Assembly (NCBI GenBank): GCA_023228225.1
Contig: JALOBO010000058.1
Span: 1 to 8,605 of the forward strand
Direction of reading: 5' to 3'
Source of the DNA: Clostridia bacterium
Lineage (GTDB): Bacteria; Bacillota; Clostridia; Christensenellales; UBA1242
Length of the DNA: 8,605 nt
The notes beneath the pieces were generated by a model. It searched no databases, was not told where the DNA came from, and saw only the letters and a program-made list of their open reading frames with translations. Below are positions 1 through 8,605 of this stretch, piece by piece. Within the stretch, counting starts at the first letter, position 1; every line of letters starts with the position of its first letter. A program made the translations under genes and the position numbers.

Positions 1-22
1 TTTTATTTTATATACAGAACAA

Positions 23-253
23 TTATTTAGTTTTATATTTAGTAGGCATATTATCAGGATATCCTAATGAAGCTTTAATAGTTTCGATTATGTTGTATAT
101 TTCTTCCTTTCCTTCTTCAAGTTCTTCATTTGAAATATGTCCTTGCGCTTGTTGCAATCCAGAATGTATAATAAAAGCATTTTCTAATAGTTGAATTACA
201 TTATTAACTTCTTGCCAAGAACGTTCGCCATTACACATATTTATTGCATTCAT
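23..253 (-). CDS. small phage protein of unknown function (76 aa)
   Basis: I do not recognise a family. With the start at 253 the product is 76 residues: an N-terminal part containing MNAINMCNGERSW, then a mostly helical, charged body with an acidic stretch (EELEEGKEE) and a short C-terminal tail ending in a lysine-rich YKTK. There are no membrane segments and no metal-binding cysteine pairs. The frame stays open upstream to 316, but a start there would overlap the preceding zinc-ribbon gene by 58 bases. The ATG at 253 lies five bases after that gene's stop, matching the 2-5 base spacing seen throughout the window, so I prefer it. It is probably cotranscribed with the gene before it. Confidence 0.6.
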   Translation of the reverse strand: MNAINMCNGERSWQEVNNVIQLLENAFIIHSGLQQAQGHISNEELEEGKEEIYNIIETIKASLGYPDNMPTKYKTK

Positions 254-258
254 ATGTA

Positions 259-543
259 TCAATTTTGATAACCGCATTTTTCGCATACTAAACCTGATAC
301 CATCATTTGTCCGCAATTAGGGCATTCGATTGAATTTCTATCTTTTGGGATTTTCGATTGTTTCTCAAGTTGTTTCATAAGCCATTTCATCAAAGTTGAT
401 TCATATTTAGGATTGCCGTGAACGAAAACTACATTATCCGATGTTTCAGTATCGAAACTTATTGACTCAATAACAGGTGCTGGTTTTGAATAATCAGTTA
501 TAAAATGATATTCCTTTTCAAACTTTAGTTTATCGTTTTCCAT
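259..543 (-). CDS. small protein with C-terminal zinc ribbon (94 aa)
   Basis: The last 25 residues hold two CxxC knuckles, CPNCG (about residues 74-78) and CEKCG (about 87-91), spaced as in a compact zinc ribbon. The first 70 residues are charged and contain a predicted beta-rich part (ESISFDTETSDNVVFVHG) followed by a basic helix (STLMKWLMKQLEKQSK). Such small proteins are common in phages and often bind nucleic acid or a protein partner, but nothing here identifies the target. The ATG at 543 follows the structured RNA region at 557-808 after an AT-rich leader. The stop at 259 is five bases before the next gene, so the two are likely one transcription unit. Confidence 0.75.
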   Translation of the reverse strand: MENDKLKFEKEYHFITDYSKPAPVIESISFDTETSDNVVFVHGNPKYESTLMKWLMKQLEKQSKIPKDRNSIECPNCGQMMVSGLVCEKCGYQN

Positions 544-556
544 GTTTATGTTTTAA

Positions 557-808
557 AATAAAAAAGCGGCCAACAATAAGATTCGCACTTATTGCTGTCC
601 TTTTACGATTCGTCACCGTAAAAGTTAGACCTAATAGATTCCGAGTCTTAACACCTTAACAACCTTGATGCACAAGGCCTTGCCTTCGAACGCTCTACTA
701 ACGGAAATTGTTGCAGACAATTTCAACGGGACACGTGCTTGATTATTGCTTCCATTTGGGCGTGACCTCCTAGCCTCTCAATCACGAGATATTTATTCGG
801 GCTCGTAT
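557..808 (-). ncRNA. candidate structured RNA: chain of hairpins between ligase and next gene
   Basis: This stretch of about 270 bases between the ligase stop (814) and the next start (543) has no convincing gene and is visibly richer in G and C than its surroundings. Read on the minus strand it forms successive hairpins, by plus coordinates: 781-788 with 802-808 (one bulge); 729-735 with 761-767 (one mismatch); 704-711 with 717-724 (8 bp, perfect); 661-667 with 673-679 (7 bp, two G-U); 625-630 with 645-652 (one bulge); 600-607 with 617-624 (8 bp, perfect); 571-580 with 588-597 (10 bp, one G-U). The last is followed by GGCCGC and a T-rich run that could end transcription. The strand is inferred from the direction of all neighbouring genes and this T run. 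It does not fit a tRNA, tmRNA or RNase P RNA that I can recognise. It might instead be a structured intergenic processing region. Confidence 0.55.
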
Positions 809-813
809 TTTGA

Positions 814-1860
814 TTATTTTTTGCTATTATCGAGAATGTTCAAAAAATCGGCACGAATCATATTTGACCATTCAGCACCCATTCTTTTTGTAAGTACTTT
901 TTGTTCTTTTAAATCAAGTGCTTCAAATGATTCTCGTTCATCCTTTAAAAAGTCGTTCATTGTGTCTCCCATGCATTCACCCACAATTTTACCGAACATT
1001 TTATCGTTAAGTTCACCTAATTTTGAAATAACCGCATTTAAACGATTTTCATTAACATATTGCATCAATGTTTCAAGTAATTCATTGCCTGCTTCTGATA
1101 ATTCGATTGCTTCTTTTGGTTGTTTCATTGATTTTTCTCCAGATTTCTTTCCAGTGATTTCAGCATATTTTTCATTTTTGTTTTTGAAAATTACACGGTT
1201 ACCTGCCCATGAACGTTTTACTTCAATTGGCTTAATAACAACACCTTCACAAACATTACCTTCAATTTCAGGTAAACCTAATCTTTTAGGAATTGTTGTT
1301 GGAAATAAATTTGGGTATTTAAGGCATTCGTTAAAAGTTCCTTCGAATAAAGGTTCGTCCCAAAAAATACCGAATTGCTCGCAAAGTTCACCTTTTTGTG
1401 TTTCACCTAATAAACGTCCATTTACTTTAATATCAAAACAGTAAAATTCATTAGTTGGTGAGTAAAATAAACCTTTTTGTACTGCAGTTGCATGTGGATT
1501 TCTTGGTACATCTGGATGAGGATATGTACCGCCGAAAAGTTCACCGTATACTACAAGTTCGCCAAGGTCAAATTCCATACCAAAATCTTTGATTTCTGAT
1601 TTGATGAAATCCCACATAGCAATAATTTTAGGATTTTCTTTTGTTGCAACTTCTTCATAATTGAAAAAGTTTTCAGTTGCATCAATGAATCCTGTTCTTT
1701 TTGCATATTTCATTTTTACACCATCATACCAAAATGAAAAATTTGAATTGTGAACAAGAATATCATCGGCAAAAAAGTTATGATTATCTTCAACTTCAAT
1801 ATCATGTCTTTTTGATTTAATGTCAATTTTTTTAATCGACTTGATTCCAACTATTTCCAT
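814..1860 (-). CDS. C-intein fused to C-terminal part of T4 Rnl2-type RNA ligase
   Basis: Residues 1-38 are a C-intein: block F reads DIEVEDNHNFFADDILVHN (20-38), with the terminal H37-N38, and the +1 nucleophile is S39. From S39 the chain is the RNA ligase 2 body: SNFSFWYDG continuing motif I, AKRTGFI (53-59), motif III YGELFGG (105-111), motif IIIa FYCFDIKV (139-146), motif IV EGVVIKP (205-211), motif V RVIFKNKN with K226 and K228, and the helical Rnl2 C-terminal domain from about 250. The nucleophilic lysine is absent because it lies in the other half-gene at 2859-3323. After trans-splicing the ligase would be 365 residues, against 334 in T4 Rnl2. ATP-dependent RNA end sealing is the family role. 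The start lies three bases after the endonuclease stop and in the same frame, so translation is probably coupled. Confidence 0.93.
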   Translation of the reverse strand: MEIVGIKSIKKIDIKSKRHDIEVEDNHNFFADDILVHNSNFSFWYDGVKMKYAKRTGFIDATENFFNYEEVATKENPKIIAMWDFIKSEIKDFGMEFDLGELVVYGELFGGTYPHPDVPRNPHATAVQKGLFYSPTNEFYCFDIKVNGRLLGETQKGELCEQFGIFWDEPLFEGTFNECLKYPNLFPTTIPKRLGLPEIEGNVCEGVVIKPIEVKRSWAGNRVIFKNKNEKYAEITGKKSGEKSMKQPKEAIELSEAGNELLETLMQYVNENRLNAVISKLGELNDKMFGKIVGECMGDTMNDFLKDERESFEALDLKEQKVLTKRMGAEWSNMIRADFLNILDNSKK

Positions 1861-1863
1861 GTT

Positions 1864-2793
1864 TTAATTGTTTATAAAATTAATTATGTTATTTATCGTT
1901 TCTTCAAAATTTTTATTTATGTCGTATTCCCATACAACGCATGTTTTATAGCCTGCAGCTTCTATATAAGAAATACGGTTTTTATCGTGAGTCCAAATAT
2001 CCACAACTGTTCTTGTCGAATTTCTTGGAAATTTGATTACGTCGTTTTCTTTATACTTTCTTGGGTTAGCATGCCAATAATCACCATATGCTTCTATTAC
2101 TTTATTTGTGTTCTTAATGAAAATATCAACCCTATAAGGATATACATTATATTCAGTTTTTGTTTCGTACCCTAATTTTAACAATTCATTATTAATTTTT
2201 TGTTGCAGCTTAGATACATTTCCACCAAATTTATTATTCGGTGATTGGATAGGATATCTATATCCGTGTGATTCTTCATAGTTATCAAAAAACTTCTTCG
2301 TAAATACTGGAGATTGCATATGGCTAGCAAAACCGTATACTTCAATATGATGAGCAATAATTTTTCTTTTTACATCTTCTCTTTGAAATACATTTGTTAT
2401 ATTTTCATCATCAAGCAAACGTTGTGTCCATTCCTTTCTTGATGTATGTTCTTTACAAAAGTTATGTTTTGCGCCGTGTCTTTCCAAGTTTGTTGTTTCC
2501 GTTTTGTCTTTGCAACGTTTTTCTTTTTTTGATTCTTTTATACTACGAGTTCCTATGCCATGCGCATTCATTAATTTGTTAACCGAACATGATGAACGAA
2601 TTCCATGTTCATGCGCAATTTCATTACATGATTTCCCGTTTACCCAATGTTCATTATATAGAAATTCCTTTGTTAAAATTTCTTTTTTGTACGTTTGCCA
2701 TTCCTTGCATTGCCATTGAAAATGATTTGATATTACATTAGGCCGTGTCACTTCGATTTCTTTTTTGCAAAAAGGACATTGATAAAGTTCCAT
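1864..2793 (-). CDS. free-standing Vsr-like (EDxHD-type) homing endonuclease inside the fractured ligase
   Basis: This 309-residue protein starts with a zinc-finger-like C-X2-C-X14-H-X4-C (C6, C9, H24, C29), then a helix-turn-helix-like part (about 42-85, KSCNEIAHEHGI), then repeats of the kind seen in phage homing endonucleases (TNLERHGAKHNF 101-112, ITNVFQREDVKRKI 132-145, HMQSPVF 158-164). The C-terminal domain (about 195-309) looks like a Vsr-type PD-(D/E)xK nuclease: VDIF with D223, KVIEAYGDYWHANP with E234, D238 and H241, THDKNR with H269 and D270, and CVVWEYD (285-291), parallel to the FxDGxxWH and VVWE motifs of Vsr. That fold is used by the EDxHD homing endonucleases found in fractured, split-intein genes. 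Lying exactly between the intein halves, it presumably cuts uninterrupted ligase alleles to spread the cassette; target specificity is inference. Confidence 0.88.
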   Translation of the reverse strand: MELYQCPFCKKEIEVTRPNVISNHFQWQCKEWQTYKKEILTKEFLYNEHWVNGKSCNEIAHEHGIRSSCSVNKLMNAHGIGTRSIKESKKEKRCKDKTETTNLERHGAKHNFCKEHTSRKEWTQRLLDDENITNVFQREDVKRKIIAHHIEVYGFASHMQSPVFTKKFFDNYEESHGYRYPIQSPNNKFGGNVSKLQQKINNELLKLGYETKTEYNVYPYRVDIFIKNTNKVIEAYGDYWHANPRKYKENDVIKFPRNSTRTVVDIWTHDKNRISYIEAAGYKTCVVWEYDINKNFEETINNIINFINN

Positions 2794-2828
2794 AAAATTT
2801 ATTTTTATTTATATATCAATATTCTTTT

Positions 2829-2859
2829 GTGAAAAATTGCACAAACTGTAATTTTTCAC
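2829..2859 (-). promoter_or_regulatory. perfect 10-bp hairpin between N-half ligase and endonuclease gene
   Basis: Bases 2829-2838 and 2850-2859 are perfect inverted copies (GTGAAAAATT against AATTTTTCAC) around an 11-base loop. The hairpin starts on the last base of the TAG stop of the upstream half-ligase gene and ends 35 bases before the endonuclease ATG. No T run follows it on the minus strand, so it is not a typical intrinsic terminator. It may protect an mRNA end or lower endonuclease expression relative to the ligase halves; either role is inference. Confidence 0.5.
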
Positions 2860-3323
2860 TAATCTATAAGAACTTTATCATTTGTTGTTAAATCTTTAAC
2901 TTGTCTCCAGCAATGTAATTCGGGCAACCAAATATAATGAGACCCTGTGACTTGTATGATTTTGCCATTCGTTGTTTCAATTTCATACCAATCATTGTTA
3001 TCTTCTTTAATAGAAAAATTAATAACACGTTTCCATTCAATTTCATTGGTATCAATATTCAAACTTTTGGCATGACAATCAAGTCTTTCTTCAATTATCT
3101 TTCCTATTGCAAGCTTGCCAAATTCTAAAGTATCAACAAGTGATTCATAAGTAAGACAACCATGCACTTTTTCTGATAATCGCCAAACGCCACCTGCATT
3201 GCCTTGTTCTGTAATTCTGTCAATTTCACGACCACGATATGTGTTCTCAATTTCTGAATATTTCGTAAATTTTCCAGGAACAAATGTATGTTCATTTGTT
3301 GTGTTAATGATTTGATCTTGCAT
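2859..3323 (-). CDS. N-terminal part of T4 Rnl2-type RNA ligase fused to N-intein
   Basis: Residues 1-55 are the start of an RNA ligase 2: KYSEIENTY and GGVWRLSEKVHG parallel T4 Rnl2's KYSSLENHY and GGEWVAREKIHG, and K52 is the lysine that takes AMP. C56 begins a 99-residue N-intein: block A CLTYESLVDTLEFGKLAIGK, and block B with the TxxH motif as T126-G-S-H129, ending with DLTTNDKVLID and a TAG stop. The ligase resumes at S39 of the product of 814-1860, so splicing joins EKVHG to SNFSF. The frame is open to a TTG at 3350; I chose the ATG at 3323, which gives an N-extein close in length to T4 Rnl2's and overlaps the upstream GIY-YIG gene by 20 bases. By itself this half cannot ligate RNA. Confidence 0.92.
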   Translation of the reverse strand: MQDQIINTTNEHTFVPGKFTKYSEIENTYRGREIDRITEQGNAGGVWRLSEKVHGCLTYESLVDTLEFGKLAIGKIIEERLDCHAKSLNIDTNEIEWKRVINFSIKEDNNDWYEIETTNGKIIQVTGSHYIWLPELHCWRQVKDLTTNDKVLID

Positions 3324-4173
3324 TTTTCGTAATTTTAAATTCGTAATCAATTAAATTATTTCGTTTGTTTATCATTGCGTAATTTGTTGCTTTTTCTAAT
3401 AAGTTCAGTGTATTTGATGTTATTTTACCTTTATTTAATAATGAAACGATTGAAGCGTATGGCATATTATTTTGTTTCGCAAATTTTATCATTTCGCTCA
3501 CACCTAAAATTTCGATAATATCGTGTGTCGGTGTAATAACATTATAAATTATCATTTGCCATTTTCTTTTATATTCTTTATATTCGTCACTTCTTTTTTT
3601 ACCCGTATTCGATTCTCCTATTTTAGCTCTATGCTCTTCTGTACTTTTGTGTCCTCTTCTAAATGTATGCAATCCTTCATTTTTTGCAAATGTTAAATTC
3701 CATTTTTCTTTTGCTGCGCTACGTTCTTCATCAGTTATTTTAGTTTGCGCTTCCTGCATTGATGCTTTTACTTTTATTACATATACAGGGTCATTCCAAC
3801 GTTCTGCTGTTGCTTTGCCTATTTTTTGTTTTGTTGAATCTTTTAATACTTTTTCTTTTGCTGCTTCGGACATGTGTTGTCTATGCGAATCAGTGAAAAC
3901 TAAACCTTGTGTGCCGCCTCCACCATCTGTTAGATTATATCCTATATTTGAATCCTTTGCATGCAATTCTTTTATCCAAAAAATTTCTTTTTCGTTTAGT
4001 TCATCAGTTGTATTAGCGGTATCAATAATTTCTTTTTTGAAATTCTCAATGCCATATTTTTTTATTGCTTTATTTATTAAAATGCCTGAACCAAAATAAT
4101 TAGGATTATTATGCGAATCTTGGCCAACGTAAATTTTGCCATTAATTAAATTTGTTATTTTATAGATAATCAT
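3304..4173 (-). CDS. GIY-YIG homing endonuclease with NUMOD3-like repeats
   Basis: The N-terminal 90 residues are a GIY-YIG nuclease: IYK (3-5) and IYVG (14-17) replace the canonical GIY and YIG, followed by YFGSG (26-30), AIKKYGIENF (36-45), a likely catalytic glutamate at E63 (NEKEIFWIKEL) and GYNLTDGGGG (78-87). The linker has repeats like the DNA-binding NUMOD3 motif (HKSTEEHRAKIGESNTGKKRS, around 175-195), and a C-terminal helical part (about 220-260) could be a helix-turn-helix. Enzymes of this type nick or cut a specific site and promote copying of their gene. The 3' end overlaps the ATG of the half-ligase gene by 20 bases. The start at 4173 follows an AT-rich 76-base gap. It is intact over 289 residues, so it may be active. 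Confidence 0.92.
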   Translation of the reverse strand: MIIYKITNLINGKIYVGQDSHNNPNYFGSGILINKAIKKYGIENFKKEIIDTANTTDELNEKEIFWIKELHAKDSNIGYNLTDGGGGTQGLVFTDSHRQHMSEAAKEKVLKDSTKQKIGKATAERWNDPVYVIKVKASMQEAQTKITDEERSAAKEKWNLTFAKNEGLHTFRRGHKSTEEHRAKIGESNTGKKRSDEYKEYKRKWQMIIYNVITPTHDIIEILGVSEMIKFAKQNNMPYASIVSLLNKGKITSNTLNLLEKATNYAMINKRNNLIDYEFKITKNARSNH

Positions 4174-4249
4174 ACTTGTTTATTTTATATATCAAATATG
4201 TTTTCTTCAATTTCACAATACTTTTTAAATTGTTATGGCAATCGATTTA
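4174..4249 (-). promoter_or_regulatory. weak promoter-like leader before the GIY-YIG gene
   Basis: The minus strand carries CATATTTG (4193-4200), one base away from the Bacteroidetes -7 element TAnnTTTG, but no TTG at the expected distance; the nearest is 15 bases upstream. The following ATATTTGATATATAAA resembles ATATTGATATATAAA in the leader of the other homing endonuclease gene (about 2805-2822). This is suggestive only. Confidence 0.25.
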
Positions 4250-4519
4250 TTATAAAAGTTTAATTCCTGGTTTTGCATTTACTGTAAGTGTTATGCCTCT
4301 TTCAATTTCGCCTGGCATAATCATTGCGGTTGATTCAACGCCCATCATTTTAACAGGCTTTAAATTTGTAATAAAAGGAAAACATAATCCTTTTAAAACC
4401 AAATTGCATTCGTCCAAGTCACCAATGTGTTGTTTAATGTTAGTAACAACCCATCTTATATCTTCATCGCCAAAGTCGACAACTAATCTTATTAGTTTAT
4501 CAGATTTTGGAATTCCCAT
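4250..4519 (-). CDS. tRNA-binding OB-fold protein (Trbp111/CsaA/YgjH-like), start disrupted
   Basis: The 89 residues from the ATG at 4519 match the EMAP/Trbp111-type tRNA-binding domain: GIPKSDKLIRLVVDFGDE, then LVLKGLCFPFITNLKPVKMMGVESTAMIM, the diagnostic NLKP-K-x-x-GVxS pattern. These OB-folds bind the tRNA elbow, alone or fused to synthetases. The same frame continues upstream to 4621 without a stop and encodes the missing first strand, including KKLEIKIGKITAV, but contains no ATG, GTG or TTG. An ATG stands just ahead of an A6 run (4617-4625); removing one A would join it in frame to give about 124 residues. So the gene is either frameshifted, affected by a homopolymer error, or expressed by slippage. 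The domain assignment is firm; the start is not. Confidence 0.75.
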   Translation of the reverse strand: MGIPKSDKLIRLVVDFGDEDIRWVVTNIKQHIGDLDECNLVLKGLCFPFITNLKPVKMMGVESTAMIMPGEIERGITLTVNAKPGIKLL

Positions 4520-4599
4520 GACTGCTGTGATTTTTCCTATTTTAATTTCAAGTTTTTTCTCTATCTCGAGAAATTCCGCAAATTCAATTTGTTCTTTCG

Positions 4600-4962
4600 T
4601 TATTTTACGTATATTATTTTTTCATCATTTTCTTTCAAATATATTATGAGCGTTTCTTCACTAAGTATAATATAAGATACTTCTTCATTTTTGCAAGAAA
4701 ACATATATATGCCTTCTTGTAATTCTTTTACCTCATCATATACAATGTATTGAACAGATGCGGTTGCAGTGTCCATACCTGTTGAATTGAAACTTAATCG
4801 TTTGCACAATTCATCAACAGTTACCTGTACATCGTCATTTTCATACCGAACCAATATAGTATCCTGAGCAAACGCAGTTTTACTGTAAAGCCAAATATTC
4901 GATTGACAATAACTTGACATCGATATAAAGTAAAATAATAGTATGAACAATATCTTTTTCAT
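4600..4962 (-). CDS. small exported protein with signal peptide, function unknown (120 aa)
   Basis: The N-terminus, MKKILFILLFYFISMSSYCQ, is a clear signal peptide: two lysines, a hydrophobic core of about 12 residues, and an end of the SYCQ type that resembles signal peptides of Bacteroidetes proteins. The mature part of about 100 residues is acidic and beta-rich (DTILVRYENDDVQVTV, EVSYIILSEETLIIYL) with two cysteines and no motif I recognise. It may act in the periplasm or outer membrane of the host, for instance in superinfection exclusion or lysis, but nothing in the sequence says which. The start is two bases after the zinc-ribbon gene; its last 22 bases overlap the open frame of the tRNA-binding gene. 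Confidence 0.7.
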   Translation of the reverse strand: MKKILFILLFYFISMSSYCQSNIWLYSKTAFAQDTILVRYENDDVQVTVDELCKRLSFNSTGMDTATASVQYIVYDEVKELQEGIYMFSCKNEEVSYIILSEETLIIYLKENDEKIIYVK

Positions 4963-4964
4963 AA

Positions 4965-5183
4965 TTATGACATTACAACAATCATTTTTTTAATTTCATT
5001 TTTACATGTTGGACAATTAAATTGTAAACCTGCCCAGCCACTTGTCATTCGAATGGTATTTACGTAAACAACTTCAGATGTTTCGCAAATTCCGGTCCAT
5101 CCGCATTTGCAAGTTATTCTTTCTTTTTTCTTTTCATCGGTATAATTTATGTCGATAAAAGAATACGCCATTGAATCGCTCAT
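4965..5183 (-). CDS. zinc-ribbon protein (72 aa)
   Basis: Two cysteine pairs, CKCGW (about residues 25-29) and CPTC (about 57-60), about 30 residues apart, make a small zinc ribbon with beta strands between (TSEVVYVNTIRMT, GLQFNCPTC). Function is unknown; such proteins often bind nucleic acid or RNA polymerase in phages. The ATG at 5183 lies three bases after the stop of the DUF262 gene, so it is in that gene's transcription unit, which the promoter at 5752-5782 would drive. A second ATG four codons in is possible but less well spaced. Confidence 0.72.
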   Translation of the reverse strand: MSDSMAYSFIDINYTDEKKKERITCKCGWTGICETSEVVYVNTIRMTSGWAGLQFNCPTCKNEIKKMIVVMS

Positions 5184-5186
5184 GAT

Positions 5187-5723
5187 TTATTTTTTAAGAT
5201 TATTCAAATGTTCAACATCTTGAGGTGTTCCAGCAAAATTGATTTGTTCAAACCATGCAATTTTGTTGTCATCGGATATTAAATCGTCCCAGTATTCGTA
5301 AGCTTGGTCGAAATGAATATGGAAACTCATAACATGTTTTTGAATTTCTTCAGGCATTTCAGAAAACAAATATTCTTTTCCTTCAAATGCAAAAGTAAAT
5401 TCATCTTTAACAAACCCTATTAATGTAGATAAACGTTGTTTACCGTCCATTACTTTATATACTTTTGTTCTGTCTTCAAATTCAGAAATAATAATGGTAA
5501 AATGTGGAATATCTCTGCCCATTAAAACAGAAGTAATCAATTCGCGTTTTTGTTCAATAGTCCAACAAAAAGGACGTTGCAAATTTTTTCCTTTTGTTGG
5601 AAGAAAAATATCAAAATCAAATTTGTGATTGTACCTTGGATTTACTAATTCTTTTAGCCATCCGTAATGCATTCCTTTTTGAATTTTTATCGGTAACTCT
5701 TTTTTAAAATCGGATAATTTCAT
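5187..5723 (-). CDS. stand-alone DUF262 (ParB-like fold) protein, paralogue A
   Basis: This 178-residue protein carries the DUF262 signatures: GKNLQRPFCW (45-54, family pattern xxxQRxYxW), the helix EQKRELITSVLMGRDIP (57-73), and VMDGKQRLSTLIGF (91-104, family pattern DGQQRLTTL). The family has a ParB/sulfiredoxin-like nucleotide-binding fold and in GmrSD-type restriction enzymes supplies the NTP-dependent part. Here only the N-terminal domain is present, with no HNH/DUF1524 nuclease half. The last 25 residues (NKIAWFEQINFAGTPQDVEHL onward) nearly equal those of the paralogue at 6267-6821. A TTG at 5741 is in frame but lies 10 bases below the -7 element, so the ATG at 5723 is the better start. 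The role could be anti-defence or hijacking; unknown. Confidence 0.85.
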   Translation of the reverse strand: MKLSDFKKELPIKIQKGMHYGWLKELVNPRYNHKFDFDIFLPTKGKNLQRPFCWTIEQKRELITSVLMGRDIPHFTIIISEFEDRTKVYKVMDGKQRLSTLIGFVKDEFTFAFEGKEYLFSEMPEEIQKHVMSFHIHFDQAYEYWDDLISDDNKIAWFEQINFAGTPQDVEHLNNLKK

Positions 5724-5731
5724 ATATTTTG

Positions 5732-5785
5732 TTTTTATCAATTGTTAAAATCAAATATACAACATTTAACAAGCAATAGCAATAG
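5732..5785 (-). repeat. duplicated promoter and leader block, copy A
   Basis: Bases 5732-5765 are identical to 6836-6869 (34 bases), then come 7 diverged bases, and 5773-5785 are identical to 6877-6889 (13 bases). Both copies lie directly upstream of a DUF262 gene, so the duplication included the control region. Confidence 0.9.
5752..5782 (-). promoter_or_regulatory. Bacteroidetes-type promoter of DUF262 paralogue A
   Basis: The minus strand shows TTG (5780-5782), 20 bases, then TATATTTG (5752-5759), an exact match to the Bacteroidetes -7 consensus TAnnTTTG. The ATG follows 28 bases below it, after an A-rich leader. The 13 bases around the TTG read CTATTGCTATTGC, a direct repeat. The same arrangement is preserved at 6856-6886. 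Confidence 0.8.
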
Positions 5786-5794
5786 TAAAGCAAT

Positions 5795-6049
5795 TTATTT
5801 TTCTAAAAGTTCCAAATTAACAGGAAATAATTTCATTGCTTTTACTGTTACTTTTTTCTTGTCCACTTTATGATTCTTTGGTTTGTCTGACCATAATCCT
5901 TGTAATGATTTAACAACTTCCAATGTAACACCGGTTTTTGTTTCATTTGTTGCAATTCCGACTGTTGATGTTGTTATGCCGCTTGAATCAACAGAATAGC
6001 CATAAGCATTTCCGATAATAACTTCGTTTCCTAATGCATCATATTTCAT
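5795..6049 (-). CDS. small phage protein of unknown function, possible SH3-like barrel (84 aa)
   Basis: The protein starts MKYDALGNEVIIGNAYGYSV, the kind of opening seen in many small T4-like phage proteins (a x-G-N-E-V-x-x-G-x-x-Y-G-Y pattern followed by short strands), which suggests a small beta barrel. A middle strand pair (TTSTVGIATNET, GVTLEVVKSL) and a lysine-rich C-terminal part (KPKNHKVDKKKVTVKAMKLF) follow. No catalytic motif is visible. It lies 15 bases after the preceding 65-residue gene, and its stop is 12 bases before the TTG of the next promoter. The family call is by pattern memory and is weak. Confidence 0.65.
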   Translation of the reverse strand: MKYDALGNEVIIGNAYGYSVDSSGITTSTVGIATNETKTGVTLEVVKSLQGLWSDKPKNHKVDKKKVTVKAMKLFPVNLELLEK

Positions 6050-6064
6050 ATTGTCATTTTTAAG

Positions 6065-6262
6065 TTATTCAATTGTTGGTCCTTGTTCAAATGCAATTCC
6101 TTTTTTCTTCAAGTCAACTTCAATTACGTTGAAAATTGTACCTTTGTATTCGGCAGTTTCATTTAATAGTTTTCTAGCTTCATCCTTTGCAACAATAATG
6201 CAAACGCCTGAAGACATTTCCCATTTATCCTTCGATGTTGTTTCTAAAATAAAAGTTTTCAT
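6065..6262 (-). CDS. small protein of unknown function (65 aa)
   Basis: I do not recognise this gene. The product has a predicted beta-alpha-beta order: MKTFILETTSKDKWEM, GVCIIVAKDEARKLLNETA, then GTIFNVIEVDLKKKGIAFE. It has one cysteine, no membrane segment and a slightly acidic end (EQGPTIE). The ATG at 6262 is four bases after the DUF262 paralogue B stop, so it is part of the same transcription unit. Its counterpart position after paralogue A is taken by an unrelated zinc-ribbon protein. Confidence 0.65.
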   Translation of the reverse strand: MKTFILETTSKDKWEMSSGVCIIVAKDEARKLLNETAEYKGTIFNVIEVDLKKKGIAFEQGPTIE

Positions 6263-6266
6263 GAAA

Positions 6267-6821
6267 TTATTTTTTAAGATTTTCTAAATGTTGAGCATCT
6301 TGTGGAGTTCCTGAAAAATTGATTTGCTCGAACCATGCAATTTTATCGGCGTCAGCAATCATTCGATTTGAATACTCATAAACAACATCAACAGTAAAAT
6401 TGAAACCTGCTATTTCATATTTTGCGTTATCGGCAAGATCTTTGAAAAAATAAATGTTATCATTTACTTCAATTGGAAATTCGTTATTGTAAAATTTTGT
6501 GATTGCAGTAAAACGTTGTTTACCGTCGATTATTTTAAATGTGCAAGCAGAACCGTCTTTTGTTCTATCACGATACTGAATCCATGAAATATTTGCAATT
6601 TTAATACCTTTGAGAACTGAAATTATAAATTCTTGTTGTTGTGATAATGTCCATACATGATCTCGTTGAAGATTTTTGCCGATAGACGGTAAAAATACAT
6701 CAGTATCATAAACATCACCATAGTGATTTTCGGCAAGAAACGAAATTGATTCTGTTGCCATGCCTTTATGAATTTCAAAAGGTAATTTTTTTCGAACATC
6801 AAATAAATCTAGTGGTTTCAT
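6267..6821 (-). CDS. stand-alone DUF262 (ParB-like fold) protein, paralogue B
   Basis: This 184-residue paralogue of the protein at 5187-5723 has the same signatures: GKNLQRDHVW (48-57), the helix QQQEFIISVLKGIKIA (61-76) and IIDGKQRFTAITKF (97-110). The end, DKIAWFEQINFSGTPQDAQH onward, is nearly identical to paralogue A, also at the DNA level, which points to recent duplication or gene conversion of the 3' end. The middle differs more, for example in the segment before the DGKQR motif (RDRTKDGSACTFK). The ATG at 6821 is chosen over an in-frame TTG at 6845, which would leave only about five bases of leader. No nuclease domain is attached. Function unknown; a nucleotide-sensing partner for another protein is possible. 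Confidence 0.85.
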   Translation of the reverse strand: MKPLDLFDVRKKLPFEIHKGMATESISFLAENHYGDVYDTDVFLPSIGKNLQRDHVWTLSQQQEFIISVLKGIKIANISWIQYRDRTKDGSACTFKIIDGKQRFTAITKFYNNEFPIEVNDNIYFFKDLADNAKYEIAGFNFTVDVVYEYSNRMIADADKIAWFEQINFSGTPQDAQHLENLKK

Positions 6822-6835
6822 ATGTTTCAATTTTA

Positions 6836-6889
6836 TTTTTATCAATTGTTAAAATCAAATATACAACATATTTGATGCAATAGCAATAG
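6836..6889 (-). repeat. duplicated promoter and leader block, copy B
   Basis: This is the second copy of the 34 + 7 + 13 base block described at 5732-5785; the 34- and 13-base parts are identical, the 7 bases between are not. Confidence 0.9.
6856..6886 (-). promoter_or_regulatory. Bacteroidetes-type promoter of DUF262 paralogue B
   Basis: TTG (6884-6886), 20 bases, then TATATTTG (6856-6863) on the minus strand, identical in both boxes and spacing to the promoter at 5752-5782. It starts just after the stop of the 59-residue gene and ends 34 bases before the paralogue B ATG. Confidence 0.8.
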
Positions 6890-6891
6890 AT

Positions 6892-7071
6892 TTACTGATT
6901 TTTTTCTAAAATAACGATATTTTTTGTCCAATTGCCGTATGACTGTGTGTATGATTGACGTTGTGCAATTTCAGCAACAAATACCCATCCTTCTTCAAAT
7001 AATTTATTTAACTCTATAACTTCAGTTTGATTAAAGTTACTAATAAGTACTGCTTTATTCTTTATTGCCAT
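6892..7071 (-). CDS. very small protein of unknown function (59 aa)
   Basis: An ATG at 7071 opens a 59-codon frame ending in TAA at 6892-6894. The product begins MAIKNKAVLISNFNQTEVIE and continues through LFEEGWVFVAEIAQRQ to a C-terminal strand, WTKNIVILEKNQ. This beta-alpha-beta layout with an EGW in the middle resembles small phage proteins in which a helix precedes a GW turn. The support is position: the ATG is four bases after the previous stop, and the stop is directly before the promoter at 6856-6886, so the frame fills an otherwise empty gap of about 180 bases. The neighbour at 7076-7324 also carries an AGW turn, hinting at distant relation. Confidence 0.65.
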   Translation of the reverse strand: MAIKNKAVLISNFNQTEVIELNKLFEEGWVFVAEIAQRQSYTQSYGNWTKNIVILEKNQ

Positions 7072-7075
7072 TTTA

Positions 7076-7324
7076 TTACATTTTAAATACTAAATAACTA
7101 CCATCACGTTGGTCTGAATGCCATTTTGCTTCTTTCCAGCCAGCAGCAAGATATCTTTTTTCAAGTATACTCCATATATCACTACGTAAACCGCTTGGTA
7201 TATCAATAGAAATTGAATTTCCGTAATTTACTGTTGATTTTGATAGCATTCTATCAATAATTTCTTCATAACGATTTGCGGTTGCTTGCAATTCCTTTTT
7301 GAATGATTCTGGTCCTATTGCCAT
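7076..7324 (-). CDS. small protein of unknown function (82 aa)
   Basis: The first half is a charged helix (SFKKELQATANRYEEIIDRML); the second half has a strand (SISIDIPSG), a helix (RSDIWSILEKRYLAAGWKEA) and a last strand (GSYLVFKM). A strand, helix, GW turn and strand with a basic patch (KWHSDQRD) is a layout common in small phage proteins of unknown role. No catalytic motif is evident. The ATG at 7324 is three bases below the stop of the preceding gene, and four bases separate its stop from the 59-residue gene, which supports one operon. Confidence 0.68.
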   Translation of the reverse strand: MAIGPESFKKELQATANRYEEIIDRMLSKSTVNYGNSISIDIPSGLRSDIWSILEKRYLAAGWKEAKWHSDQRDGSYLVFKM

Positions 7325-7327
7325 ATT

Positions 7328-7543
7328 TTATGAGTTTAAAAGTGAACATATTAAAACTACTTGAAAGCAACAAATATCTATCGGCATTAATCGTCTTTCA
7401 ACTTTATATAACGGTGCATCTAATCTCTTTGATGAAGCAACCGCATCACCTATGTTTGGAACTAAATAATGTTCGTACGTTAATACAACATTTTGTTTCA
7501 AATCAACAACTGTGATTTTATAAATTGGGTTATTGTCAAGCAT
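7328..7543 (-). CDS. small protein of unknown function (71 aa)
   Basis: The first two thirds look like beta strands (IYKITVVDLKQNVVLTYEHYLVP) followed by a helix (IGDAVASSKRL) and a strand (YKVERRLMPI). The end, CCFQVVLICSLLNS, is hydrophobic with three cysteines, but too short to be a confident membrane anchor. I do not recognise a family. The ATG at 7543 follows a leader with the 12-base palindrome CTTAAATTTAAG (7547-7558), just after the T run that ends the structured RNA. No separate promoter is visible, so expression would need read-through of that RNA or an unseen promoter. Confidence 0.62.
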   Translation of the reverse strand: MLDNNPIYKITVVDLKQNVVLTYEHYLVPNIGDAVASSKRLDAPLYKVERRLMPIDICCFQVVLICSLLNS

Positions 7544-7560
7544 ATTCTTAAATTTAAGTT

Positions 7561-7882
7561 AAAAAAAAACGGTTTCGATACGCAGCCTTGTATAAACCTC
7601 AAGAATCGTACAATCAGAATTCTATCAAATTACTCAAGGATTTGAAAGACCTTTCGGCTTTATATCTTTTACCTTTAAAGCCCTATGCCTCGGTATTTTT
7701 ACCGATACGGCTAATAGAAAGCAATAAGAGATTTGAGTATTGAAATTTAACGTTTGACCTTTAAGATTTGAACTTTTCAGTTTTTTTCCTAATATGGAGT
7801 TGCGCCCGAGAGCGCGACGTTAATTCTATCTTAACCTAGATAAAGAGGGATTGTGTTGTAGAGGTTTTCGCGTATGAAACCG
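7561..7882 (-). ncRNA. candidate structured non-coding RNA closed by a long terminal stem
   Basis: This 340-base gap between genes folds on the minus strand as one domain. The ends pair: 7870-7882 with 7570-7583 form 13 bp with one bulged base. Inside, 7861-7867 pairs with 7594-7600 (7 bp) and 7849-7854 with 7610-7615 (6 bp), so three nested long-range helices hold the two ends together. Local hairpins follow: 7819-7823 with 7831-7835; 7802-7805 with 7812-7815; 7691-7695 with 7700-7704 (5 bp, four-base loop); 7656-7662 with 7676-7682 (7 bp). Nine Ts (7569-7561) directly follow the closing stem, as at an intrinsic transcription end, and fix the strand. I looked for RNase P, tmRNA, tRNA and group I intron core sequences and saw none. 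I cannot assign a known class, nor do I see a promoter of the TAnnTTTG type. Confidence 0.65.
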
Positions 7883-7902
7883 TTTTACTTTATATTATTC
7901 GA

Positions 7903-8529
7903 TTAAACCTCGATAGAAGTTATTGCATTACTTTCGCTAAGAACCGCATCGACTTCACCTAAGAAATCTTGAAGTTCAGTTTCAAGAATTGCAATTTTGT
8001 CATCTATGTTAAGTGGGTCAACATATTCATAACCGTTGTTTTCATCAAACATTTTTGACAATGATGTGATTTCTTCTGGCTTTGCTTTTGATTTATCACC
8101 GCCTAGTGAAGCATTAATGAATATTTCGCGTTTTTCAGCGATTTGCGCATTTTGCTTTTCAAGACTTGATTTTCCTTGACGAGATCTGTTTTTAAGATTG
8201 TCAATAAAGCTTGCAGTTAATGCAGCGTTACCTTTTGCTGTTATTGCGTCAGCAACACTCATTTCTTTGTTTGCAACTGTTACAATTGTTTTACTGTTAG
8301 ATAAAACGATTGCTGCTTTAATTGCATTTTTACGTGCGATTAAATCTTGAACAGATTGATATGATTTTTTCGCGTTTTCAACGAATTTTGCTTCCTCTGT
8401 ATGTCCGTATACAAGTTTACCTTTTTGACGGATTCCTACTGGTTGGATTTCTGAAATTGCTTTCGCGATTCGTGAATCAATTGTTTTGATTTCTGTTAAA
8501 GCTCTGTGAATTGTTAATTTTGTAGCCAT
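7903..8529 (-). CDS. conserved-looking phage protein of unknown function (208 aa)
   Basis: From the ATG at 8529 the product begins MATKLTIHRALTEIKTID and is largely helical: a helix to about residue 28, a turn (VGIRQKGKLVYGHTEE), a long helix (EAKFVENAKKSYQSVQDL and on), a strand pair (KTIVTVANKEMSVADAI), a coiled-coil-like helix (SSLEKQNAQIAEKREIF) and an acidic C-terminal part. The opening helix and the central VTVxxKxMxVAxAI pattern resemble small virion-associated or hypothetical proteins I recall from tailed phages, but I cannot name the family. The frame extends 18 codons upstream to 8583; those codons cover the promoter element, so I prefer 8529. The stop is 20 bases before the structured RNA. 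Confidence 0.75.
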   Translation of the reverse strand: MATKLTIHRALTEIKTIDSRIAKAISEIQPVGIRQKGKLVYGHTEEAKFVENAKKSYQSVQDLIARKNAIKAAIVLSNSKTIVTVANKEMSVADAITAKGNAALTASFIDNLKNRSRQGKSSLEKQNAQIAEKREIFINASLGGDKSKAKPEEITSLSKMFDENNGYEYVDPLNIDDKIAILETELQDFLGEVDAVLSESNAITSIEV

Positions 8530-8531
8530 GT

Positions 8532-8554
8532 TTAAGATTTTTAAGTTTTTTAAG
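8532..8554 (-). repeat. nine-base-period leader repeat
   Basis: CTTAA occurs three times at exact nine-base spacing (8532-8536, 8541-8545, 8550-8554) in the A-rich leader between the promoter and the ATG at 8529. The leader has no Shine-Dalgarno sequence, as usual in Bacteroidetes. Confidence 0.6.
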
Positions 8555-8567
8555 TTTGAATTAATTT

Positions 8568-8575
8568 CAAATATA
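8568..8575 (-). promoter_or_regulatory. Bacteroidetes-type -7 element before the 208-residue gene
   Basis: TATATTTG on the minus strand matches TAnnTTTG exactly and equals the two DUF262 promoters. There is no TTG 20 bases upstream, so the -33 box is weak or different. The ATG is 38 bases downstream. Confidence 0.6.
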
Positions 8576-8605
8576 TTATACATAAGATTTCATTAGTTTC
8601 ATTTT
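8576..8605 (-). CDS. possible C-terminal end of a gene running out of the window
   Basis: A frame open to the window edge reads KMKLMKSYV and stops at TAA (8576-8578), one base before the promoter element. Nine codons are too few to be sure; gene packing makes it plausible. Confidence 0.2.
   Translation of the reverse strand, partial: KMKLMKSYV

Follow-up and report, generated by a model that had tools for sequence, protein, structure and literature searches.

Anatomy of the RNA ligase locus

The window analysed here, 8,605 nt of phage-like DNA in a Clostridia bacterium assembly (GenBank GCA_023228225.1, contig JALOBO010000058.1, positions 1 to 8,605 of the forward strand), carries an Rnl2-type RNA ligase gene in two parts, each fused to a piece of an intein. 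Three minus-strand open reading frames (ORFs) form one unit: the N-half of the ligase, an intervening endonuclease ORF and the C-half, all of them open without interruption. The N-half gene (2859..3323; 154 aa, stop codon included) runs from an ATG at 3323 to a stop codon at 2859-2861 and encodes, by alignment to T4 Rnl2, a 55-residue N-extein (3159..3323) ending in EKVHG (motif I), followed by a 99-residue N-intein (2862..3158). The intervening ORF (1864..2793; 309 aa) ends with its stop codon 3 nt before the start of the C-half gene (814..1860; 348 aa, stop codon included), which extends from an ATG at 1860 to a stop codon at 814-816. This second half of the ligase opens with a 38-residue C-intein (1747..1860) ending in ILVHN and continues as a 310-residue C-extein (817..1746) from Ser39, the +1 nucleophile. 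A sequence-only reading of this DNA had drawn the same borders, with an N-half whose ligase part ends at EKVHG before a 99-residue N-intein (C56, TxxH at 126-129), and a 38-residue C-intein with HN at 37-38 after which the ligase resumes at S39 (SNFSFWYDG). We confirmed all of these, and the 365 residues given there for the joined exteins agree with the arithmetic (55 + 310). The 309-aa ORF between the halves was absent from that reading.

Both halves were recognisable as Rnl2 when each was searched separately. Comparison with T4 Rnl2 structures in the PDB gave matches for the C-half (1.4e-20) and the N-half (0.0019, T4 residues 3-40), and the Rnl2 profile TIGR02307 gave 1.1e-48 (166.4 bits) for the C-half and 0.0041 (16.7 bits) for the N-half, the halves being scanned apart against a cut-off of 197.15. 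The C-half also matched the PHROG RNA ligase profile (1.9e-54), PF09414 (6.5e-14) and the T4_Rnl2_C domain PF18043 (3.2e-20; 72.7 bits, cut-off 27). The predicted adenylated lysine, K52, lies in the EKVHG of the N-half, and the C-half carries GELFGG (residue 106), FYCFDI (139), EGVVIKP (205) and RVIFKNKN (222), which we take to be motifs III, IIIa, IV and V. All five motifs are intact, in line with the earlier statement that K52 and motifs III-V are on separate chains. Compared with T4 RNA ligase 2 (PDB 2hvq, 1s68), motifs I-V align across both halves and the T4_Rnl2_C domain is present, whereas the window ligase consists of two polypeptides, each fused to an intein piece. Its identity to phage ligases is 30-35% (40 listed among 1,354 records).

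Intein signatures were detected in both halves, with the NCBIfam profile intein_Nterm (TIGR01445) matching the N-half (3e-8; 34.5 bits, cut-off 24.5) and intein_Cterm (TIGR01443) the C-half (4.2e-6; 26.8 bits, cut-off 15.6), while Pfam PF14890 gave 26.3 and 21.8 bits with each half scanned alone (cut-off 35.8). The best PDB matches of the N-intein were DnaE inteins (4.2e-6), gp41-1 not being among those listed; the C-intein best matched Spl DnaX (7.5e-5), with gp41-1 next (7e-4). The proposed closeness of the C-intein to the gp41-1 type is a weak reading, as gp41-1 came no nearer than other inteins in these searches. On sequence evidence, the locus is an intact Rnl2 RNA ligase gene fractured at its catalytic motif by a natural split intein, and ligation would probably depend wholly on trans-splicing.

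The intervening ORF is predicted to encode a free-standing homing endonuclease of the Vsr/I-Bth0305I type. It matched a PHROG homing endonuclease profile (7.8e-10) and, both under the gathering cut-off, the Pfam families DUF7487 (5.4e-5) and MTES_1575 (3.1e-7); a sequence search of solved structures returned 0 matches. Its structure model (pLDDT 87.7) matched I-Bth0305I and Vsr (PDB 3r3p, 1cw0) with 16-17% identity over the aligned part, pointing to a Vsr-like fold, and the predicted Vsr-type nuclease domain covers residues 190-309 (1867..2226), including an EAYGDYWH stretch. Unlike these two enzymes, the window ORF has a DUF7487-like N-terminal part.

Relatives with and without the split intein

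A search with the N-half yielded six proteins from 18 candidates, the window's included, and all six are N-halves with EK[VI]HG^C (^, splice junction). The C-half search returned 739 proteins, and among the best 120 of these, six (again including the window's) have a C-intein ending in HN^S. Cys at intein position 1 (C56), the class 1 nucleophile, and the block B residues T126 and H129 (TxxH) are invariant in 6/6 N-halves, as are the C-terminal His-Asn and +1 Ser (H37, N38, S39) in 6/6 C-halves. The sequence-only reading had considered homologues sharing the split and lacking intein features; the relatives found do carry intein features there. Relatives of the window endonuclease (P0128-P0130) have 67, 66 and 48% identity to it, and the longest contig is 8,229 bp for both P0129 and the N-half P0003.

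Among IMG/VR contigs, L004 represents a second complete split Rnl2 locus, in which an N-half (EKAHG^C), an endonuclease ORF and a C-half (HN^SNYS) follow the gene order of the window; its endonuclease has the same N-terminal part and, by eye, an HNH-like stretch at its end. L003 instead has a contiguous intein at the same residue, between EKIHG and SNIS, with a LAGLIDADG domain (2.8e-21). The window C-half itself retrieved 25 stretches from IMG/VR, none of them a relative, and near-identical phage DNA was searched for and not found. A scan of viral contigs for the junction pattern gave four stretches, among them the contigs of L003 and L004; L087 holds a cis intein whose host gene resembles a terminase by eye, and L088 was dismissed as a chance frame, as was L090, the sole match among genome contigs.

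Three of the N-halves have intein-free counterparts. P0002 is identical to the full-length ligase P0010 over 95 residues, P0003 to P0009 over 95 residues and P0005 to P0011 over 48 residues, each pair diverging exactly at the junction, while the other three of the six had no identical intein-free partner among the proteins fetched. These are metagenome proteins compared at the protein level, and the natural reading is that they represent occupied and empty alleles of a mobile element, which suggests that such elements still move. The counterparts could be assembly chimaeras, in which case no mobility would be seen: they come from metagenomes, and one pair has a source label (lgn) in common. 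However, three pairs each break exactly at the splice junction, and their labels read jgi,lgn and ncbi,lgn (P0002/P0010), jgi and lgn (P0003/P0009), and lgn and ena (P0005/P0011), so that we consider chimaeras improbable.

The residue at the insertion site bears on how an empty allele could be invaded. Among 114 listed relatives without an intein, KxxG was found in 113 (not in the fragment P0042) and is followed by Ala in 75, Ser in 34, Thr in two and Gly in two. The split and cis Rnl2 forms examined all have Ser after the motif, and two of the three empty partners have Ala. Because Ala cannot act as a splicing nucleophile, invasion of an Ala allele must carry the Ser codon along.

We regard it as very probable that a split intein has fractured the Rnl2 gene after the glycine of EKVHG, leaving halves on either side of a predicted homing endonuclease gene of the Vsr type, and that the two proteins trans-splice into a 365-residue ligase. 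Splicing, cutting and homing, as we infer them, would proceed as follows, the splicing steps being proposed because the signature residues are intact. The N- and C-intein pieces would associate, Cys56 would attack the Gly55-Cys56 bond, the N-extein would move to Ser39 of the other chain, and cyclisation of Asn38 would leave the ligase sealed; only then would K52 (motif I) and motifs III-V be in one chain. The endonuclease would cut ligase alleles that lack an intein, and when such a break is repaired with the fractured copy as template, the entire N-intein/endonuclease/C-intein segment would be copied in.

The halves might instead associate through their intein pieces into a two-subunit ligase that is active without splicing, or splice slowly or conditionally as a switch. 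In favour of this, a phage ribonucleotide reductase (RNR) whose gene has been split by a homing endonuclease functions in the form of two peptides, according to the available text of PMC10448857. Yet a non-splicing complex would have no need of the splicing residues, and Cys1, the block B T/H, His-Asn and Ser+1 are invariant in all six N-halves and all six C-halves, which makes this alternative unlikely. That the locus has decayed and its role has passed to a different RNA ligase of the phage is very unlikely: several RNA ligases are possible in jumbo phages (available text of PMC7824862) and our analysis covers the window, but none of the three frames is interrupted, the intein residues and ligase motifs I, III, IIIa, IV and V are all preserved, the same residues are conserved in relatives, and the C-half and the endonuclease are each found on five contigs (longest 425,361 bp).

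Split inteins at motif I of other ligases

Searching IMG/VR with an alignment of C-halves gave at least 600 stretches and 157 relatives, of which the best 80 were kept; these were ranked by similarity to the window C-half, so that the sample is biased and its counts are not a census. It contains 65 C-half ORFs with an N-terminal C-intein, 55 of them distinct at 95% identity, and host families were looked up for part of the 55. Ligases make up at least 20 of the 55, and at least 17 of these have, on the same contig, an N-half whose ligase part stops precisely at Kx[HD]G, directly before the intein Cys. These 17 belong to five ligase families: Rnl2 (L004 and the second pair of L007), Rnl1-type phrog_562 (L005, L006, which is the first pair of L007, L008, L011, L012, L014 and L047), phrog_968 RNA ligase (L010, L048 and L077), ATP-dependent DNA ligase (L017, L019, L028 and L065) and NAD-dependent DNA ligase (L018). 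The other three split ligases are cut elsewhere, L027 two residues later and L013 and L039 at KTDEER. A cis LAGLIDADG intein is present in the ATP-dependent DNA ligase of L061, at PKLDG^C...HN^CRAM.

Individual contigs and records showed further features. L007 (IMGVR_UViG_3300025839_000011; 7004-8960 and 12272-14545) carries Rnl1-type and Rnl2-type RNA ligases, both fractured at motif I, and the N-half of L014 (5747-6628) has about 70 extra residues after the intein compared with other N-halves. In Salmonella phage NINP13076 (L099, 2480-2947), an annotated DNA ligase of 155 residues breaks off soon after motif I, and a second matching place lies elsewhere in the same record. Twelve loci (L015, L016, L020, L033, L035, L036, L045, L046, L054, L063, L071 and L074) combine a split C-half, a Vsr-type endonuclease nearby and an S-x-Y junction; a DNA polymerase host was checked in 11 of them (all but L074).

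Tentatively, and with somewhat less than even confidence, we propose that a split-intein lineage with its own Vsr/DUF7487-type endonuclease may have specialised on nucleic-acid ligases, landing repeatedly just after Kx[HD]G in at least five distant families (Rnl1, Rnl2, phrog_968, ATP-dependent and LigA) through ectopic homing from one active site to another of equivalent structure. A paired-intein tree was built from 26 loci and the window over 140 columns, after 7 of 33 pairs had been dropped as duplicates or for an unresolved junction; it holds ligase, RNR, DnaE and helicase rows and no split polymerase inteins. All 21 ligase rows stood apart from the six RNR, DnaE and helicase rows with a support of 85/81, which is not strong. 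The Rnl2 split inteins formed no clade, and their monophyly was not rejected (window and L004, p-AU 0.105; all three, 0.1). The endonuclease tree comprises 40 rows from 17 ligase loci (the window, 13 of the 17 motif-I loci, L013, L027 and L039), 12 DNA polymerase loci and 11 loci without an assigned host, with matches below 200 aa, L029, P0129 and P0140-P0142 left out. Here, the 12 polymerase rows were split from all others by a branch with 100/100 support. Speaking against a neat ligase clade, the 11 host-unassigned rows all lie intermixed on the ligase side, and the ligase label needs six changes. An endonuclease family confined to ligases was ruled out by weaker relatives in split DNA polymerase loci and beside L064, a contiguous RNR intein with a relative of the window endonuclease nearby; six split loci in RNR, DnaE and helicase genes (L022, L069, L060, L067, L032 and L037) had no match to the endonuclease profile.

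Motif I of ligases occurs in several states. It is empty in the intein-free alleles, holds a contiguous LAGLIDADG intein in L003, L061 and mycobacteriophage Phoebus, and is split together with an endonuclease in the window, L004 and others. The endonuclease is reduced in L006 (a 100-codon remnant) and interrupted in L077 (one in-frame TAG), and L005 and L010 are split without any intervening ORF of 60 codons. Empty, contiguous, split with endonuclease and split without it may thus reflect the order of events. L048 was not counted as a broken endonuclease, because its in-frame stops are all TGA and recoding is equally likely; in this contig (6824-8000), the first eight stops of the endonuclease frame are TGA (8/8) and 9 of 12 long plus-strand ORFs end in TAA, making TGA recoding in this phage possible. 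Fifteen ligase loci have an endonuclease ORF of at least 200 aa without interruption. The endonuclease stop lies behind the first possible C-half ATG in 12 of them (in L017 this holds only for the first of its two ATGs), and in L008, L011 and L014 it lies at least 87 nt upstream of that ATG. Such an overlap may couple translation of the C-half to the endonuclease and slow endonuclease loss.

Neighbouring features and known systems

Outside the intein, a GIY-YIG homing endonuclease ORF (3304..4173, minus strand; phrog_314, 1.1e-40; TIGR01453, 4.7e-14, just under the cut-off) overlaps the start of the N-half with its end by 20 nt, so that the ligase has two endonuclease genes of different families at it. 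No tRNAs and no Rfam families above cut-off were found in the window. On the minus strand, the gene-free region 7545-7902 is a candidate structured RNA, with a fold of -85.0 compared to -63.9 for mononucleotide shuffles (sd 4.4, 60 shuffles) and ends that pair before a T run; no Rfam family came near the cut-off. A second gene-free region of about 270 nt (545-812) has a fold that is not unusual (-64.3 vs -61.2, sd 4.9) and matches nothing in Rfam up to E 1. Two look-alike short minus-strand ORFs (5187-5741 and 6267-6845; 184 and 192 aa) have only the N-terminal domain of GmrSD, and both are preceded by near-identical sequence with the promoter-like motif TTG-N-TATATTTG. The starts inspected show no clear Shine-Dalgarno sequence, which, together with this motif, we take as a hint of a Bacteroidota host.

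Searching phage records by tblastn with the L003 protein gave 639 records, and 7 of the 15 listed match across the intein: mycobacteriophages Phoebus, Dallas, Beem, Bobby, KashFlow and Hannaconda, and Pseudaeromonas phage KLEP7. Two of these seven were examined. In Phoebus gp158, which has no match to the Rnl2 profile, a LAGLIDADG intein is flanked by QKLHG and SSIR, at the corresponding motif of a different ligase subfamily. The other, KLEP7 gp164, is annotated as 'intein-containing RNA ligase' and was rejected as a motif-I case, its intein being inserted at another motif (GEWAG). RNA ligase is therefore not wholly new as an intein host, and the sequence-only suggestion of a new host gives way to these cis inteins in annotated phage RNA ligases; the split form in Rnl2 was not found in annotated phage records. 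Among 50,697 phage records, the window N-half had 18 matches, 17 to the ligase part alone and one to a Streptococcus phage intein, and none was a split Rnl2. The latter phage, GXN1, was set aside, having no ligase profile match and an intein ORF that reads like a terminase. In the same records, the L004 N-half had 20 matches, none annotated as ligase and four unannotated. DNA ligases of the phi92 type were likewise rejected as intein carriers, the phi92 gene being annotated as an uninterrupted 1,116-nt ligase (one record of 599). Among the open-licence PMC papers listed, none dealt, by title and abstract start, with an RNA ligase carrying a split intein or with motif I of ligases as an intein site, and PMC5050341 contains no occurrence of 'ligase'.

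Three things make the locus interesting: its position at the adenylated-lysine motif, empty alleles that match occupied ones, and the possibility of a lineage specialised on ligases. The ligase belongs to an enzyme family that serves as a laboratory tool; since a natural split intein occupies its catalytic lysine motif, ligase activity should be gated by trans-splicing, and the locus and its relatives offer new natural split-intein pairs. Because occupied and empty alleles exist, and because one equivalent residue is found with a cis intein, with a split intein and with a split intein that lacks an endonuclease, the origin and spread of split inteins become directly testable. If the ligase-wide pattern is true in an unbiased sample, a motif common to DNA and RNA ligases would be a recurrent landing site for mobile elements.

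The cis inteins of Phoebus gp158, KLEP7 gp164 and L003 share the RNA ligase host with the window, and those of Phoebus and L003 also the position after KxHG, but they are contiguous and include a LAGLIDADG domain. In 2009, Dassa et al. reportedly described fractured genes in which the halves of a split intein enclose a free-standing Vsr-like endonuclease, with helicase, RNR, IMPDH and similar genes as hosts. These resemble the window in the order of N-half, endonuclease and C-half on one strand, in the conserved active-site position and in the Vsr-like endonuclease, whereas the host in the window is an Rnl2 RNA ligase, interrupted at its adenylated-lysine motif. According to the available text of PMC6892783, the DNA polymerase B gene of jumbo phage MIJ3 is divided by a putative split intein into orfs 153 and 155, and orf154 between them is an endonuclease gene; this arrangement is shared with the window, while the host is a polymerase and the endonuclease is of the HNH type. 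Judged by its sequence, the window locus belongs to this known fractured-gene arrangement, to which Rnl2 is added as a host.

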